A DNA stretch of 28,600 nucleotides, from assembly GCA_001799195.1 (NCBI GenBank), contig MGSU01000291.1, positions 1 to 28,600 on the forward strand, read 5' to 3'. The first letter of the stretch is position 1, and each line of letters starts with the position of its first letter. This DNA is from Deltaproteobacteria bacterium RIFOXYA12_FULL_61_11. Lineage in GTDB: Bacteria > Bdellovibrionota_F > JAHFAK01 > YA12-FULL-61-11. The position numbers and the translations under genes were made by a program. Positions 14,263 through 25,711 of this stretch are shown piece by piece. The notes beneath the pieces were generated by a model. It searched no databases and was not told the DNA's origin. It saw only the letters and a program-made list of their open reading frames with translations.

Positions 14263-14573
14263 CACACCCTCCCCGCGGCTCATGCCGCTTCCCATCCGTG
14301 GTATCGATCGAGATCGGGATTCCTTAGACCGGAGGTGAAAAAAAGTCGACCGCCCAGGAGAGAACCGACGCTCCTCCTGCGATTTGGTCGAGGCTCTGAA
14401 GGTTGGATCAGGGTAAGAAACGCAAGTATTAAACAGTTATGACGATGAAGTTATTGTAGAAACACGCAAAACGAGGAGGCGTTGACGCCCTTCCCCTATG
14501 GTGGTAAGCACAAATGACGATGGCAACTTGGGGGTCCGCTGCTCGGCGCGAGGTCGGGATCGGAGGAACCGCG
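14263..14573. other. Divergent intergenic region between the sigma factor and the transporter
   Basis: These 311 bases separate two divergent transcription units. The middle part (14400-14475) is A/T richer than its surroundings. A run of seven A at about 14338-14344 lies beside GGAGGTG but no gene fits. A short palindrome GGCGT-TG-ACGCC (14478-14489) overlaps a possible -35 element. No RNA gene or open frame with coding character is visible. Confidence 0.5.
14482..14510 (+). promoter_or_regulatory. Weak candidate promoter for the YeiH-like gene
   Basis: TTGACG (14482-14487) has five of six -35 bases; at 17-base spacing the -10 would be TAAGCA (14505-14510), a poor match. The position suits a transcript with a 55-60 base leader before the start at 14574. 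Confidence 0.28.
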
Positions 14574-16028
14574 ATGACAACGGAACACAGCCCGTTCTGG
14601 CGGTCCGAGGACTGGTGGTCGGTCTATCTCGGACTCTTGGTTTTCCTCCTCTCCCTCGGAGTCCTCGGAGGGCTCGATCTTTTAGGCTGGGGCGTCAAGT
14701 TCTCGGTCTGGGCCGACCCCCTGAAGGCGCTCAAGGCAGTATCCCCCGAGTACGCGGGGTTGCCCGGCTATCTCGCCCTGCTCGGCACCTATGCCGCCAT
14801 GCTCGTCCTTACCCTGGTCGGCGCCCACTTCCTCGGCCTGGACCTCAAACGCTTCCTCGTCGGCTTCACCGTCATCTTCGCCGTGTCCGCGCTGTGTCTC
14901 TTCCTCGGCCACTACGGTTACATCGCCGCCACCCCGGACAAGCGCGAGGCGCTCGGCCTCGGTTGGTCGCTCAACCTCACCGGTGAGGCCGGCTACATCC
15001 TCGCCCTGCTCGCCGGACTCACCCTCGGCAACCTCTTCCCCGCTGCCACGCGCCGCCTGGCCGAGGCCACCCGGCCCGAGTGGTACATCAAGACCGCGAT
15101 CGTGATCATGGGCGCGGCCCTCGGGGTCAAGGCTGCCTCGGCCACGGGTCTGGCCGGCACCATCATCTTCCGGGGGTTGTGCGCCATCGTCGAAGCGTAT
15201 CTCATCTATTGGGCCCTGGTGTACTTCCTGGCCCGCAAGTATTTCGGTTTCAGCCGGGAATGGGCCGCGCCGTTGGCCTCCGGCGTCTCGATCTGCGGGG
15301 TCTCTGCGGCGATCGCCACCGGGGCGGCTATCCGGGCGAGACCCGTGGTACCGATCATGGTCAGCTCCCTGGTCGTGGTCTTCGCCGTGGTCGAGCTGGT
15401 CCTCTTGCCCTTCCTGGCCCAGCAGTTCCTCTACCACGAACCCATGGTCGCGGGTGCCTGGATGGGTTTAGCGGTCAAGACCGACGGCGCGGCCGTGGCC
15501 AGCGGCGCCATCGTCGATTCCCTGGTGCGCGCCAAGGCCCTCGCCGAGGAGGGCGTCGTTTACAAAGAAGGCTGGATGCTGATGACCGCGACCACGACCA
15601 AGATGTTCATCGACGTCTTCATCGGCATCTGGTCCTTTCTTTTAGCCGTGATCTGGTGCACCAAGATCGATGCGGGCAAATCGGGTCAGCGGGTCGGCCT
15701 CGGCCACATCTGGGAGCGCTTCCCCAAGTTCGTGCTCGGCTATGTCTTGACCTTCGCCTGTCTGTTGGTCGCTGTTCTGACCTGGCCAGAACTGCAGGCC
15801 GTCGCGGCTACCGCCACGGACGAGGGCAACGTCTTCCGGGTCCTCTTCTTCACCATGACCTTCTTCTCGATCGGCCTGATCTCGGATTTTCGTAAACTGT
15901 GGGAGGAAGGCATCGGCCGCCTAGCCGCGGTCTACCTCATCAGCCTGTTCGGCTTCATCATCTGGATCGGCCTGTTCATCTCGTGGGTCTTCTTCCACGG
16001 GATCAAGCCGCCGCTGGGCAACGGTTGA
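14574..16028 (+). CDS. YeiH/UPF0324-family membrane transporter (putative sulfate exporter family)
   Basis: The 484-residue integral membrane protein matches the conserved core of the YeiH (UPF0324, DUF698) family: KTAIVIMGAALGVKA, SGVSICGVSAAIATGAAIRA and the later AGAWMGLAVKTDGAAVASGA region. About twelve membrane segments are visible. Family members are predicted exporters of small anions, linked to sulfonate or sulfite metabolism by context, with little direct proof. This one is longer than the roughly 340-residue E. coli type because of an N-terminal part and an extended region after residue 350. The ATG at 14574 is chosen for GGAGGAA 6 bases upstream; the frame is open to 14514. A small membrane protein gene follows after 20 bases. 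Confidence 0.88.
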   Translation: MTTEHSPFWRSEDWWSVYLGLLVFLLSLGVLGGLDLLGWGVKFSVWADPLKALKAVSPEYAGLPGYLALLGTYAAMLVLTLVGAHFLGLDLKRFLVGFTVIFAVSALCLFLGHYGYIAATPDKREALGLGWSLNLTGEAGYILALLAGLTLGNLFPAATRRLAEATRPEWYIKTAIVIMGAALGVKAASATGLAGTIIFRGLCAIVEAYLIYWALVYFLARKYFGFSREWAAPLASGVSICGVSAAIATGAAIRARPVVPIMVSSLVVVFAVVELVLLPFLAQQFLYHEPMVAGAWMGLAVKTDGAAVASGAIVDSLVRAKALAEEGVVYKEGWMLMTATTTKMFIDVFIGIWSFLLAVIWCTKIDAGKSGQRVGLGHIWERFPKFVLGYVLTFACLLVAVLTWPELQAVAATATDEGNVFRVLFFTMTFFSIGLISDFRKLWEEGIGRLAAVYLISLFGFIIWIGLFISWVFFHGIKPPLGNG

Positions 16029-16048: not shown

Positions 16049-16216
16049 ATGCACACGCCCCGAGAACCGAAGCTCATCGAAGAACTCGACCGCATGCAGC
16101 AGGAACCCCTCCTGCCGATCGAGAAAAAGCTCATCACCTACAGCATCGTGCTGGGCGTGACCCTCCTCGCCCTGCTCGCCTGGATCAGTTGGACCTTCTT
16201 CGAGGTGCCTGGCTGA
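16049..16216 (+). CDS. Small single-span membrane protein (55 aa)
   Basis: A charged N-terminal half (MHTPREPKLIEELDRMQQEP) is followed by one membrane helix (about residues 29-50) and a short tail ending FFEVPG. AGGGA lies upstream of the ATG. The gene begins 20 bases after the YeiH-like gene, on the same strand, and is probably an accessory subunit of that transporter; the family is unknown to me. Coding status is supported by the second copy of its last 48 bases at 17540-17588, which differs only by conservative or silent codon changes plus one inserted base. Confidence 0.75.
   Translation: MHTPREPKLIEELDRMQQEPLLPIEKKLITYSIVLGVTLLALLAWISWTFFEVPG
16169..16216 (+). repeat. Direct repeat copy A: 3' end of the 55-aa gene
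   Basis: This 48-bp stretch, from GCCCTGCTCG to the stop TGA of the small membrane protein gene, recurs at 17540-17588. The two copies bracket the DUF4143 gene and its promoter (16217-17539). Confidence 0.9.
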
Positions 16217-16235
16217 GGGCTAGTACTCGGCAAGC

Positions 16236-16263
16236 TTGCAATTGTGCATTTGAAATGCATAAT
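16236..16263 (+). promoter_or_regulatory. Promoter of the DUF4143 ATPase gene
   Basis: TTGCAA (16236-16241) and CATAAT (16258-16263) are 16 bases apart, 18 bases upstream of the GTG start. The region is A/T rich in an otherwise GC-rich surrounding, and it lies inside the inserted segment, so the gene carries its own promoter. Confidence 0.5.
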
Positions 16264-16264
16264 T
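16240..16264. promoter_or_regulatory. 25-bp palindrome, candidate operator
   Basis: The core TGCATTT-G-AAATGCA (16245-16259) is a perfect inverted repeat. With one G/T mismatch the symmetry extends to AATT on each side, giving 12-base arms around base 16252. It covers the end of the -35 and all of the -10 element, so a dimeric repressor bound here would block transcription. A bidirectional hairpin terminator is less likely because no T tract follows and the arms are A/T rich. Confidence 0.55.
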
Positions 16265-16280
16265 ACCTGGCATACCCCAT

Positions 16281-17525
16281 GTGAAGGAGAAACCTGGTCC
16301 CTTGGACTATCTCCCCAGACAGGTAGAGAGCACCTTGGTCAGAGCGGTGGGGGAGTTCCCGGCCGTCGTCCTGACCGGACCGCGCCAGTCGGGTAAAACC
16401 ACGTTACTGCGACACCTGTTCGGTTCCAGCCATGGTTACATCTCCCTCGACCTGCCCGATGTCCGTGCTGCGGCCAAGCTCGATCCGCGCGGTTTCCTGC
16501 AACACTACCGACCTCCCCTCATCCTGGACGAAGTGCAAAACGTGCCCGAACTTCTACCGTACCTCCGCGAAGCTATCGATCACGAGCGAGCCGCCTGCGG
16601 ACGCTTCGTGCTCTCCGGTTCGCACAACCTGCTCTTGATGGAAAAGGTCAGCGAGACGCTCGCGGGTAGGACCGCAGTGTTGCGCTTGTTGCCGCTGGCC
16701 TGGGCTGAACTCGACCACCGTGATACGGCCGCGCTGCCCTGGGAGTGCGCTGCTGAAAGACCTGCCGAGTTGGCCGGCGTCTCGAGTTCAACCGACCCAT
16801 GGGCTCGAATCGTCCGCGGCGGATATCCAGAAGTAAGCCTGGATCCACAGCGGGATGCTCGACTCTGGCATGCCTCGTACCTGCAGACGTATCTCGAGCG
16901 CGACGTACGGCTCCTGCGCAATGTCGGGGACCTGACCCAATTCCAGATCTTCCTGCGCAGCCTTGCCGCCCGCGTGGGCCAACTGCTCAACCTCACGGCC
17001 CTGGCGCGGGATCTCGGGATCGCGGTCAATACTGCCAAGGCTTGGCTCTCGCTGCTGGAGGCCTGTCACCAGGTTGTGTTGGTACGCCCCTACTTCTCCA
17101 ACTATGGGAAAAGACTTGTCAAAACACCCAAGGTGTATTTCCTTGATACGGGAACCTTGTGTGCTTTGGTCGGCCTGCACGACGCCGAGCCAGCCCGGCT
17201 CGGTCCCATGGCCGGAGGGCTCTTCGAGAACGCGGCGGTCGTCGAGATCCTGAAGCGACTCACCCATCACGGTAAGAGCCCCGGGTTATCCTTCTGGCGG
17301 ACGAGCACGGGGCATGAGGTCGACCTGCTCGTCGAACACGCGGGTAGCCTCGTGCCCATAGAGATCAAGGCCACGGCGACACCGCGGGCAGAGATGGCCG
17401 CAGGCATCCGAATCCTGCGCGAGGCCCTCGGCGACCGTCTCGGTCCGGGCTACCTCATCCACGGGGGCACGCATCGCTTACCCCTCGGCCCAGCGCTCAC
17501 CGCATGGCCTTTGCTGGGGATGTGA
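16281..17525 (+). CDS. AAA_14 / DUF4143 family ATPase
   Basis: The 414-residue protein has the AAA_14 domain with Walker A GPRQSGKT (33-40), Walker B LILDEVQ (80-86) and a sensor-like SGSHN (112-116). A helical or winged-helix-like middle follows, then the DUF4143 domain. The C-terminus carries a restriction-endonuclease-like signature, with GHEVD (Glu346, Asp348) and IEIKAT (Glu361, Lys363), as is common in this family. Function is not established for the family; members are widespread, patchily distributed and often transferred. The start is GTG at 16281, without a good Shine-Dalgarno sequence. The gene stands alone, with its own palindromic promoter, between two copies of a 48-bp repeat derived from the neighbouring gene's end. 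No integrase or transposase is present beside it. Confidence 0.9.
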   Translation: MKEKPGPLDYLPRQVESTLVRAVGEFPAVVLTGPRQSGKTTLLRHLFGSSHGYISLDLPDVRAAAKLDPRGFLQHYRPPLILDEVQNVPELLPYLREAIDHERAACGRFVLSGSHNLLLMEKVSETLAGRTAVLRLLPLAWAELDHRDTAALPWECAAERPAELAGVSSSTDPWARIVRGGYPEVSLDPQRDARLWHASYLQTYLERDVRLLRNVGDLTQFQIFLRSLAARVGQLLNLTALARDLGIAVNTAKAWLSLLEACHQVVLVRPYFSNYGKRLVKTPKVYFLDTGTLCALVGLHDAEPARLGPMAGGLFENAAVVEILKRLTHHGKSPGLSFWRTSTGHEVDLLVEHAGSLVPIEIKATATPRAEMAAGIRILREALGDRLGPGYLIHGGTHRLPLGPALTAWPLLGM

Positions 17526-17539
17526 TCCCGACCTAGCGT

Positions 17540-17588
17540 GCCCTGCTCGCCTGGGTCAGTTGGACCTTACTTCGAAGTGCCGGGCTGA
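17540..17588 (+). repeat. Direct repeat copy B: displaced, frameshifted 3' end of the 55-aa gene
   Basis: Compared with copy A there are three substitutions and one inserted A. The substitutions are ATC to GTC (Ile to Val), GAG to GAA and CCT to CCG (both silent), a pattern of coding-constrained divergence. The inserted base (17570, or a neighbour) breaks the frame, so this copy is now a gene remnant. It lies 14 bases after the DUF4143 stop. Confidence 0.88.
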
Positions 17589-17609: not shown

Positions 17610-19664
17610 TCAGGGGGTGGTCCCCGACATCGAATATGCTAGACCGCGTTGTTCCGTTGGGCTGGGAGAAGTGACCAGGGCGGCAATGGGTTGGTCCGCG
17701 GTGATGATGGCCGACCCGGTGAAGCCTGACGTAAGAGCGGCGATCTCAGCGGTACAGAGCTTCGCCCAACCTCGAACAGGAACGGTGACGACCTGATGCG
17801 CAGCCAGGTCACCGTTCTCGGCATGGAAGTCTATACCGGCCTCCACGGCAAGGGCGTGGTCGTGGACGACCCGGATGCAGGTCTGCCGGCCTTTAACATC
17901 CTTGTATATCGCGGGCAGATGAAGAACCCGGCCTTGGGGCATGATCCCGTTGTAGCCCATGCCGATACGCTGTTCGTCGTGATTCTGGAACACGGTGGCG
18001 ACAATGCGCCCATCATTCTCGCTCTCGAGCATGGCGAGACCGTCGAAACCGGCCTCAGGGGTCGTGGTGGTATCATCATTTTTCACAATCCAGGAAGCCC
18101 CGGGTTGGATGGACGGTGAGGTAACCGTTTTCAAGGCACTGCCGCCTGTGCTGGCGTAATAGGTGATCGTGCATCCGGTCGCAACGGTACCGGCGTTCTG
18201 GATGGCCAGGGTTGACGTATACCCGTTCGCGGCATGGGCTACCCAGGGCAGGATCAACCTGCTTGAGTGCGCCGGTTGAGCGATAGTCCCGAAGGCTCGC
18301 AAGCCAACGTCCGGGAGAGCTGATCTAAATACATTGCTGTCGGAAAAAGCATAGGCGGCAAGGGGGGCATCCGGTGCGGTGATGACCGCCGAGAATCGGG
18401 AATTATCCGGAAACCTAGCGTCAATCCGTATCGGAATGTCAACATTCTGAGATGCTTGGATAGGGGGATACTGATCTTCGAATAGCTGCAACCCATTCAA
18501 AGAATTGTAAAATGTTATTGAAATCGGAGTGCTGTCCTCGCCAAGGTTGATGATGGTTAACCCGGAGGTATAGAGGAGGTCGCGATTCTTCTCCAAGAGG
18601 GGGATGAACAACCTATTGCTGGCAGTACCAAAGGCGGGATAGCAGAAGCTGTCGTTCGTATCGTGAGCAGGATCATCCACGTTGATACGTTCGTTATGGA
18701 CAGCCATGGCGATGGGGACATCTGCCGTGACCCTGACCAAACCGCTGAATGAAGTCCCCAGCATGGTTTTATTCAAGGTATGGATTGTCTGCTGGCCGCG
18801 TTTTGCCAAAACAATGTTTTCGGATATTGAAAAAGAACTATTATCTTTAAAATAGGTGAGTTCCGCGGTCCCGGTTGTGACCTCCGAGGTGTTCACGAGC
18901 ACGAGTTCGCTGTCGAAATCAGCGGTCCGTCGGTACACAGGGGCGAAGAGCACAGGCGCTTCGTAGAACTCAGGCGTGTAAGGATCGGTAATTTTCTGTT
19001 CAACGGTCATCTCGAACCAGTGAGAGGCCAGTTGCCCCTCGCGGTCGAAAACAACCAAACGAATCGTATGAGTACCGATGTGGTTAATGTCGGGAGACCA
19101 GGTGAGTAACCCATCGGTACTATCGAGCTGCATACCTTCGGGTAGTTGTAAGGGGAAATAGAAAAAGGGCTCCGTCCCTCCAGCTACTTCGACTTGATAC
19201 GTGACAGCATTCCCGAGACGTAGGTTGGCCGGCGGCACTGAGGTCACCGTAGGTCTATTAAGCGGGGGGCCAGAGGCGCCCTGCGGCCCAATCTCACCTC
19301 GAGGCCCTGCCGGTCCCGGTTCACCTTGCGGCCCAACAGGTCCGGGCTCACCAGGCGCACCAGCGACCCCTGTTGCACCCTCCGGTCCCTGGATACCTAC
19401 GTCCCCAGGATCTCCCTTGGCTCCTTTGGATCCTTTCATGTCGGCGAGGAATTCTTCGTCCTCTTTCAATCTCCTGGTGACTTCGTCGAACAAGGCCTCC
19501 TCGGTGATCGCGCCTTCTTCTTGGAGCTTCAGCAGTTCCTCCAGTGTATACCCTTCGAGATCAGCAATGTGGGGTTCTATGAGGGCTGAGGGAGGCTTGT
19601 TCTCTGAGTTGCAGGCTACGATGCCGACGAACAGCAAGAGTATAGCGAGATGAGAACGTTCCAT
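17610..19664 (-). CDS. Collagen-like lipoprotein with Ig-like and repeated beta-sandwich modules
   Basis: The 684-residue protein has a lipoprotein signal (MERSHLAILLLFVGIVAC, lipidated Cys18). Residues 28-77 are helical and acidic, a likely trimerising coiled coil. Nineteen uninterrupted Gly-X-Y triplets follow (78-134, GSKGAKGDPGDVG onward). An Ig/cadherin-like domain of the putative-Ig (He_PIG) type spans about 135-230. Four diverged modules of about 110 residues come next, each starting with a hydrophobic strand (FAPVYR, LFIPLL, LILPWV, LHLPAI) and ending in a segment such as SAIITADQPIAALV. The whole looks like a trimeric surface spike or adhesin anchored in the outer membrane. The ATG has GGAG 8 bases upstream. 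Ligand and function are unknown. Confidence 0.85.
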   Translation of the reverse strand: MERSHLAILLLFVGIVACNSENKPPSALIEPHIADLEGYTLEELLKLQEEGAITEEALFDEVTRRLKEDEEFLADMKGSKGAKGDPGDVGIQGPEGATGVAGAPGEPGPVGPQGEPGPAGPRGEIGPQGASGPPLNRPTVTSVPPANLRLGNAVTYQVEVAGGTEPFFYFPLQLPEGMQLDSTDGLLTWSPDINHIGTHTIRLVVFDREGQLASHWFEMTVEQKITDPYTPEFYEAPVLFAPVYRRTADFDSELVLVNTSEVTTGTAELTYFKDNSSFSISENIVLAKRGQQTIHTLNKTMLGTSFSGLVRVTADVPIAMAVHNERINVDDPAHDTNDSFCYPAFGTASNRLFIPLLEKNRDLLYTSGLTIINLGEDSTPISITFYNSLNGLQLFEDQYPPIQASQNVDIPIRIDARFPDNSRFSAVITAPDAPLAAYAFSDSNVFRSALPDVGLRAFGTIAQPAHSSRLILPWVAHAANGYTSTLAIQNAGTVATGCTITYYASTGGSALKTVTSPSIQPGASWIVKNDDTTTTPEAGFDGLAMLESENDGRIVATVFQNHDEQRIGMGYNGIMPQGRVLHLPAIYKDVKGRQTCIRVVHDHALAVEAGIDFHAENGDLAAHQVVTVPVRGWAKLCTAEIAALTSGFTGSAIITADQPIAALVTSPSPTEQRGLAYSMSGTTP
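19263..19433 (-). repeat. Collagen-like Gly-X-Y repeat region (19 triplets)
   Basis: Within the lipoprotein gene, 19 consecutive Gly-X-Y codon triplets are seen, rich in Pro, Glu and Ala at X and Y. The pattern includes GEPGPVGPQGEPGPAGPR, a normal bacterial collagen composition. Confidence 0.92.
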
Positions 19665-24136: not shown

Positions 24137-25711
24137 TCAATCCTCAGGATCAGGCAACAGCGTGCATTCCACAGGGTAGAGGTTGTCGAAGAAGAACACC
24201 TTGTCCATGTAGGTATGGCAGGTGAAACCCTCCCGGCCGCAGGTGAAGCCTGTCCGGCATCCAGCGCCCGCGCAGTTGCCGCAGTACTCGAACAGGGTCT
24301 CGTTGCCGTTGGTGCAGTGTTGCACGCCTTGGCAGAGAAGGACCGGGGGTTCAGGCGGGTCCTCGGGGGGAGGTTCGGACGGCGGTGGTTCCGGCAAGAG
24401 CCTGCATTCCACGGGATAGAGCGTGTCGAAATAGAACTTGATTGAGGCGTAGGTCTCGCAGGTGAAACCCTCCCGGCCGCAGGTGAAGCCGGGCCGGCAC
24501 CCCGCGCCCTCGCAGTTGCCGCAGTACTCGAACAGGGTCTCGTTGCCGTTGGTGCAGTGTTGTACGCCTTGGCAGTCGAGAGCCGGTGGCTCGGGCGGGT
24601 CCTCGGGGGGATCCTCAGGTGGTGGCGGTTCGGGTTCCGGGTCTTCGGGCAAGAGCCGGCATTCCACGGGATAGAGCGTGTCGAAGTAAAACTTCTTCTC
24701 GGCGTAGGTTTCGCAGGTGAAGCCTTCCCGGCCGCAGGTGAAGCCAGGCTGACATCCCGCGCCGGTGCAATTGCCGCAGTACTCGAACAGGGTCTCGCCG
24801 CCGTTGGTGCAGTGCTGCACTCCTTGACAGAGGAGGGCAGGGGGCTCCGGTGGAGAGGGAGGGTCGGGGGGCTGCGGGTCGCAGGGAAGCTGGTACAGTT
24901 TGTCGAAGAAGAACACCTCGGTCGGAGAGGTCTTGCAGGTAAAACCCTCGCGGCTGCAGGTGAACCCCGGCCGGCAGCCCGCGCCGCTGCAGTCACCGCA
25001 ATACTCGAAATAGGTCTCGTTGCCGTTGGTGCAGTGTTGGACCCCCAGGCAGGTGTCCGGTGACGGTGGTTCGGGGGTGGGAGCGGGTTTGGGCAAGAGG
25101 GAGCAGTCCAGGGGATAGCGTTCGTCGAAGTAGAATACCGGTTCTGGAGAGGCGATGCAGGTGAAGCCTTCTTTCTTGCAAACCGATCCGGGATTACACC
25201 CGGGCCCAGCGCAGTCGCCGCAATACTCGAAGTAGGTCTCCTTCCCGTCGGTGCAGTGCTGCACCCCCAGGCACTGCGTGCCGAGATAGCTCCCGGTCTG
25301 TTGAAGCGATGCAGCCAGCGAGGTCGACGCTGGTAACCGTTGGATGTTGAAGTCGTCGATCTCGTCGACGAGTATGGTCGAACGGTCACGATAGGCCTCG
25401 AGGTCCTGGTGCGGGGTTCCGGCCTCTGAGTGGATCGGCTCGGTGCTGGGGAGGGCGAGGGTGGACTCAGGGTCCGGCTTGTCGGGCGCGGGTGTCTGGG
25501 GATCGGGGGAGTCGGGATCTGTGATCGTGGTCTGCTCCGGCTCCGCCGGCTCCTGAACCCCGCTGGATCCTGCTCGGTCGTCGCTGGCCTCTTGCACCTC
25601 GGCGGGATCGACCTCGGCTCCGTCCGTGCTGCAGCCAGTCCCACCGAGCCAGATCAGAGCGGTGATGACGAGAAAAACCGAAGAGCGCGGCCGGAAGGTA
25701 TGGTCGTCCAT
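24137..25711 (-). CDS. Probable lipoprotein with five tandem Cys8 modules
   Basis: The 524-residue protein begins with a signal peptide (FLVITALIWLGGTGC), probably lipidated at the Cys although the lipobox is not ideal. A Pro/Asp/Glu-rich linker fills residues 30-145. Then come five modules beginning at Cys147, 221, 295, 380 and 460, each of 57 residues with eight Cys in the pattern CxGVQHC, FEYCGxC, GC, C, EGFTC and a final C after an aromatic FxFDxxY segment. Pro/Glu-rich linkers of growing length separate them. Four disulfides per module are likely. I do not know the family. The ATG at 25711 is preferred for GGGGGA 7 bases upstream; the frame opens earlier. Modules 3 to 5 are far more alike than 1 and 2, showing recent duplication or conversion. 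It is presumably an extracellular binding or stalk protein. Confidence 0.85.
   Translation of the reverse strand: MDDHTFRPRSSVFLVITALIWLGGTGCSTDGAEVDPAEVQEASDDRAGSSGVQEPAEPEQTTITDPDSPDPQTPAPDKPDPESTLALPSTEPIHSEAGTPHQDLEAYRDRSTILVDEIDDFNIQRLPASTSLAASLQQTGSYLGTQCLGVQHCTDGKETYFEYCGDCAGPGCNPGSVCKKEGFTCIASPEPVFYFDERYPLDCSLLPKPAPTPEPPSPDTCLGVQHCTNGNETYFEYCGDCSGAGCRPGFTCSREGFTCKTSPTEVFFFDKLYQLPCDPQPPDPPSPPEPPALLCQGVQHCTNGGETLFEYCGNCTGAGCQPGFTCGREGFTCETYAEKKFYFDTLYPVECRLLPEDPEPEPPPPEDPPEDPPEPPALDCQGVQHCTNGNETLFEYCGNCEGAGCRPGFTCGREGFTCETYASIKFYFDTLYPVECRLLPEPPPSEPPPEDPPEPPVLLCQGVQHCTNGNETLFEYCGNCAGAGCRTGFTCGREGFTCHTYMDKVFFFDNLYPVECTLLPDPED
24164..25273 (-). repeat. Five tandem module repeats inside the Cys8 lipoprotein gene
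   Basis: Module DNA lies at 25273-25103, 25051-24881, 24829-24659, 24574-24404 and 24334-24164 (minus strand). The last three keep long identical DNA stretches, for example around GAGTACTGCGGCAA and the EGFTC segment. The units are 222, 222, 255 and 240 bases apart, all multiples of three, so changes in repeat number would keep the frame. Confidence 0.9.

Follow-up and report, generated by a model that had tools for sequence, protein, structure and literature searches.

How does a solitary accessory gene, having no mobility genes of its own, come to stand at the end of another gene whose last bases recur behind it? This question is raised by a 28,600-nucleotide stretch of DNA (hereafter the window) from a draft assembly of Deltaproteobacteria bacterium RIFOXYA12_FULL_61_11 (342 contigs, 4.64 Mb), where a DUF4143 ATPase gene lies between the intact end of a 55-aa gene and a second, broken copy of that end (Table 1). 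The DUF4143 ATPases are abundant and patchily distributed, are defence candidates and come without mobility genes, and their mode of spread is of interest. It was proposed in a preliminary description of the locus that the ATPase gene had been inserted into the 3' end of the small gene by a site-specific integration, the incoming DNA restoring the gene with its own version of the tail and displacing the old one, and that the family may move as a minimal cassette. As argued below, the scar is most likely the product of ordinary one-sided recombination with the DNA of a relative and not of a new kind of mobile element.

Table 1. Features of the locus, in window coordinates.
Feature	Position	Strand	Basis
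yeiH-like transporter gene, upstream partner of the target	14514..16028 (start may be 14574)	+	PF03601, E 1.1e-21
55-aa small gene with one TM segment, the target, intact	16049..16216	+	ORF; homologues beside yeiH in relatives
Copy A, final 48 bp of the intact 55-aa gene	16169..16216	+	self-alignment
Promoter/operator-like element: TTGCAA, palindrome TGCATTTGAAATGCA (16245-16259), TAATTA	16236..16265	+	recurrence near homologues
AAA_14 + DUF4143 gene	16281..17525	+	PF13635, E 1.2e-44; PF13173, E 7.1e-27
Copy B, displaced and frameshifted 3' tail of the 55-aa gene, up to the stop codon	17540..17588	+	alignment, codon comparison
Convergent neighbour gene	17610..19664	-	ORF

The last 48 bp of the small gene recur 14 bp beyond the stop codon of the DUF4143 gene, as had been described, with 45 of the 49 aligned columns identical and with three substitutions and one extra base in copy B (self-BLAST E 2e-14). 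The alignment score is 76, whereas none of 852 random 300-bp segments drawn from the window scores above 24, and no third copy of the tail better than E 0.01 is found elsewhere in the assembly. Codon comparison confirms that the substitutions are either silent (GAG/GAA and CCT/CCG) or exchange Ile for Val (ATC/GTC). Copy A is part of a working gene and copy B is a frameshifted remnant, which begins abruptly inside the small-gene sequence; the last bases of each copy are those of the stop codon. Between them the list of open reading frames contains one gene only, that of the AAA_14-DUF4143 protein, with neither a transposase nor a recombinase gene in this segment, and the best inverted match between the 500-bp flanks in the window scores 21, which is at chance level. 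The reading of the locus as a transposon or insertion sequence was thus dropped, there being no terminal inverted repeats and no transposase between the copies. It might also be considered that two strain haplotypes were joined at the small gene during assembly, which a draft of this kind would allow. This we regard as hardly credible: A and B have no exact match longer than 15 bp, which is too short for a k-mer join, a complete and unique gene separates them, and this architecture is seen again in assemblies made independently.

In order to see which part of the arrangement is new, the locus is compared with 80 related transporter loci. The homologue of the small gene follows the yeiH-like gene directly in 76 of them, from many phyla, and at least two of the other four lie at contig ends. 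The proteins of this family of small proteins, with one TM segment, have the core motif PLLPxEKKLI and the end WxSxTFF, and they match no Pfam or NCBIfam model; the yeiH-like gene itself scores below the cut-off of TIGR00698. Not one of the 80 loci has a DUF4143 protein nearby (flank up to 5 kb) or a duplicated small-gene tail, the best direct score there being 33 as against 76 in the window, so that both the ATPase gene and the second tail are derived in the lineage of the window. The earlier statement that there was an insertion at the 3' end of another gene is supported. From its position, the convergent gene downstream of copy B probably marks the original downstream flank. Further downstream, on the minus strand, the window has a cysteine-rich repeat gene with internal repeats (24175-25273) about 70-81% identical.

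The ATPase gene matches the PADLOC single-gene candidate PDC-S01 with 391.8 bits, and no solved structure resembling it by sequence was found. Its translation probably starts at TTG 16302 instead of GTG 16281, because AAGGAG stands at 16284-16289 and a homologue starts with MDYIPRQ. Upstream of it, the palindrome TGCATTTGAAATGCA overlaps a promoter-like site; the exact palindrome occurs at equal distance upstream of homologues in two other genomes, G230 (L147) and G307 (L151), and variants of it are present upstream of other near DUF4143 homologues. From this recurrence the palindrome is a candidate operator of the DUF4143 family, and the imported unit would therefore include a conserved control region. 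The genome of the window has ten DUF4143 genes, the comparable ones being roughly 30-47% identical to that of the window. At the other nine loci no flanking direct repeat above chance was found in 500-bp windows, in a check in which the frame chosen for some loci (L019, L026) may be wrong. One contig of this genome (C255, L296) has two divergent DUF4143 genes placed head to head, about 300 bp apart.

That other DUF4143 genes might lie beside truncated ends of their neighbours, as the preliminary description suggested, turned out to be the case in two other genomes, G001 and G217. The former is the only other genome of the window's class in the comparison, which includes no close relative of the window genome; the gene names used here (thiG, carbonic anhydrase, amidohydrolase, SDR, HEPN/MNT and HicAB) come from reading the translations and not from a family search. 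One locus of G001 has, in order, an intact thiG, a HEPN/MNT-like pair, a thiG tail fragment, the DUF4143 gene and a second thiG tail fragment. The two fragments on either side of the DUF4143 gene (f1 and f2) have a common 22-bp deletion, and one fragment has about 108 bp identical to the intact thiG, 84 bp of them past the stop codon. At a second locus of G001 the order is the end of a carbonic-anhydrase-like gene, a HicAB-like pair, an SDR gene, the DUF4143 gene and a tail fragment that begins 28 bp past the DUF4143 stop. In G217 it is the other end of the target that is repeated: the DUF4143 gene is preceded by the first 177 bp of an amidohydrolase gene, and the whole amidohydrolase gene begins 8 bp past the DUF4143 stop. 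For this locus an empty site is available in G386, of the same genus, where the upstream 60 bp and the amidohydrolase gene are contiguous and in single copy, and both amidohydrolase pieces of G217 match it. Besides these loci, G001 contains long hairpin-like elements (L317, 847-941 and 16723-16818), the copies 85% alike and each flanked by inverted words of its own, which are possibly a dispersed palindromic repeat.

With these loci two further explanations can be weighed. According to the first, a recombinase supplied in trans brought about a site-specific insertion at the end of a gene, and the repeated tail is the attachment site. Integrative elements at tRNA 3' ends leave the target whole and a 3' piece at the far end, and so it is here. 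The stop codon of the target coincides with the end of the repeat, or lies within a few bases of it, in the window and at both G001 loci, and at thiG two successive cargoes are each bounded by a tail copy. Unlike those elements, the present segment has no recombinase and no constant att core, the targets are protein-coding and the copies have diverged. Moreover, the targets are unrelated, with no common core seen, the direct target repeats range from 49 bp in the window to 130 and 177 bp at two other loci, the gene end used also varies (5' in G217), and the same scar is present around RhuM genes. The term site-specific is thus not sustained, and we consider this explanation quite improbable. 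According to the second, the small gene was first duplicated in tandem, one copy was eroded to its tail and the DUF4143 gene landed between them later. The parts would then stand in the order observed, and the divergence would also be of the coding type if the second copy worked for a while. However, no tool result points specifically to it, no tandem copy or tail remnant is present in the relatives examined, the empty site in G386 has one copy, and the events would have had to happen again, independently, at thiG, at the carbonic-anhydrase gene and at the amidohydrolase gene, with a DUF4143 gene at each junction. We hold it to be very improbable.

The way in which the copies differ bears on how they arose. 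The differences at codon positions 1, 2 and 3 number 1, 0 and 2 in the window, 1, 1 and 9 between thiG and f1, 2, 0 and 7 for the amidohydrolase and 5, 3 and 7 for the carbonic anhydrase. Pooled over the four loci, 25 of the 38 differences are at the third position, giving P 4e-5 against one third and P 0.02 against 0.48, the latter being our estimate for a decaying fragment beside an intact gene that itself drifts silently; the pool is small and mixes loci, and the three substitutions of the window prove little by themselves. With G386 as the outgroup, the changes in the fragment lineage of G217 can be polarised: all five are at the third position (four silent, one nonsense), with P 0.004 under free decay. 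This bias indicates that, at least in G217, both copies were functional genes during their divergence and one of them was disrupted afterwards, which is what is expected if the incoming DNA brought one copy and the other is the allele of the recipient. The earlier statements that the copies diverged as coding sequence, and that the incoming DNA brought its own end of the target gene and displaced the old one, are both supported.

The alternative to be set against this is an insertion with long target duplication, in which a cassette is inserted at a break or staggered nick and a resident stretch of tens to hundreds of bases is copied across, so that the copies are at first identical and later diverge, one of them as a pseudogene. 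In its favour, direct repeats exceed reversed ones both around DUF4143 genes (14 against 4 of 128 loci) and in the surveyed contigs as a whole, the deletion common to f1 and f2 gives the impression that a fragment was duplicated when it was broken already, two remnants seem to enclose several RhuM loci, and there is a precedent in restriction-modification genes, as far as the citing papers summarise it (PMC1643837, citing Nobusato 2000; PMC3154945). On the other hand, the third-position bias and the five of five changes in G217 argue against free decay of an identical copy. We thus think this explanation rather unlikely for the window, while giving it serious weight. Note also that the carbonic-anhydrase copies, with 7 of 15 differences at the third position, fit plain decay. 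As this pair lacks the bias, and the thiG fragments have their common deletion and their identity past the stop, more than one process may act.

Is the scar peculiar to DUF4143? In a survey comparing the 500 bp upstream with the 500 bp downstream of each gene, direct repeats scoring at least 44 flank 14 of 128 DUF4143 loci (13 of 127 when the window is left out), about four or five of the 14 being duplicated target-gene ends. The repeats at L222/L271, L218, L160, L180 and L065 were rejected as target-gene duplications, being dispersed or tandem intergenic repeats or low-complexity sequence. At a score threshold of 40, a flanking direct repeat is present at 7 of 445 other genes (Fisher P 3e-5). 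The 36-locus and 71-locus comparisons are biased, some loci having been picked after their repeats were seen, and the 128-locus count is less biased. At this threshold of 40 the fraction is 5 of 24 for RhuM, an unrelated solitary family, and 0 of 27 for PGK; on these counts, set beside 13 of 127 for DUF4143, a mobility mechanism specific to DUF4143 was rejected. The proposed movement by the nuclease-like domain of the protein is hence not upheld, the scars being at least as frequent at RhuM loci and a HEPN/MNT-like pair lying between two thiG tail copies at one site, and a self-mobilising cassette is not supported either. The RhuM genes at L346, L347, L357, L362 and L344 are flanked by long imperfect direct repeats, several of which resemble gene-tail remnants. 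At L262 (15930-17067, reverse complement) direct repeats of 55 bp (51/55) enclose a RhuM-like gene; translated, these repeats resemble the beginning of a type I restriction subunit (TEDTLEQVLIDFFKELG).

It is noted that in well-studied species 10-18% of strain-variable segments carry flanking direct repeats (PMC2884548). The proportion of about 10% for DUF4143 loci is like that, whereas most repeats there are shorter than 30 bp and those found here, of about 49-177 bp, take in gene ends. From the RhuM scars and the published proportion it follows that the flanking-repeat signature is a mark of recently gained accessory genes generally and is not specific to DUF4143. One could still imagine that solitary defence-like genes (DUF4143/PDC-S01, RhuM, HEPN/MNT) share a dedicated trans-acting route, a recombinase-free cassette system by which they are inserted at the ends of coding genes and the ends are restored; we consider this improbable.

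On balance we lean towards the locus being the scar of a one-sided import, with homologous recombination on one side and illegitimate joining on the other. Based on this reading, DNA of a related lineage would have arrived carrying the end of yeiH and the small gene, followed by the DUF4143 gene. Homologous recombination in or upstream of the small gene would have left that gene intact with the tail of the donor (copy A), while the far end of the incoming DNA, 14 bp beyond the DUF4143 stop, would have been joined illegitimately into the small gene of the recipient at about codon 41. The old tail of the recipient (copy B), together with its old downstream flank, would thereby have been displaced 1.3 kb downstream, and copy B would have been frameshifted afterwards. 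Orthologous coding sequence keeps its similarity and intergenic DNA does not; because the similarity is thus lost past the gene, the repeat can end at the stop codon with no att site being needed. For the window itself we infer this mechanism by analogy with the better-resolved amidohydrolase locus of G217, and the same holds for the roles of donor and recipient and the steps of recombination.

In favour of the one-sided import, the repeat is unique, the insertion is derived, the architecture recurs elsewhere, G386 provides an empty site for one such case, and the divergence of the copies is of the coding type. It presupposes a donor that already had DUF4143 at the small gene, and none was found among the genomes compared; the relatives of the window among them are distant ones, having one tail and no insert, and the empty site at the DNA level is that of the G217/G386 pair. 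Against a single simple import stand the common 22-bp deletion at thiG in G001 and the identity of about 108 bp reaching past the stop. Relatives of ComEC and DprA are present in the genome of the window, in G001 and in G217, which is compatible with DNA uptake and not diagnostic of it; both proteins are near-universal. The scars, together with the one true empty site, suggest that single accessory genes can be moved between lineages by nothing more than recombination with the DNA of relatives, and a displaced gene end combined with coding-type divergence provides a simple signature for finding such imports in draft genomes.

Among known systems, the locus in the window is closest to two kinds. 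The first is the insertion with long target duplication described for restriction-modification genes of Helicobacter pylori (Nobusato et al. 2000, Gene 259:99, cited in PMC1643837 and PMC3154945). Going by the account in the citing papers, a short gene cargo there too lies between long direct target repeats at variable places. The cargo here is an AAA_14-DUF4143 gene, a PDC-S01 candidate, instead of a restriction-modification gene, and the copies here differ in a coding-type pattern, so that at least some of them would be donor and recipient alleles and not fresh duplicates. The second is homology-facilitated illegitimate recombination, which was proposed for the displaced and stacked T6SS effector-immunity modules of Vibrio cholerae (Kirchberger et al. 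2017, PMC5361080). There, as in the one-sided import, one junction depends on homology and the other on illegitimate joining, the former 3' part comes to lie further downstream, and repeated events pile up, as they do at thiG in G001. Unlike in V. cholerae, the targets here are unrelated genes of the housekeeping type, just the gene end remains, and a solitary gene, a defence candidate, makes up the cargo.
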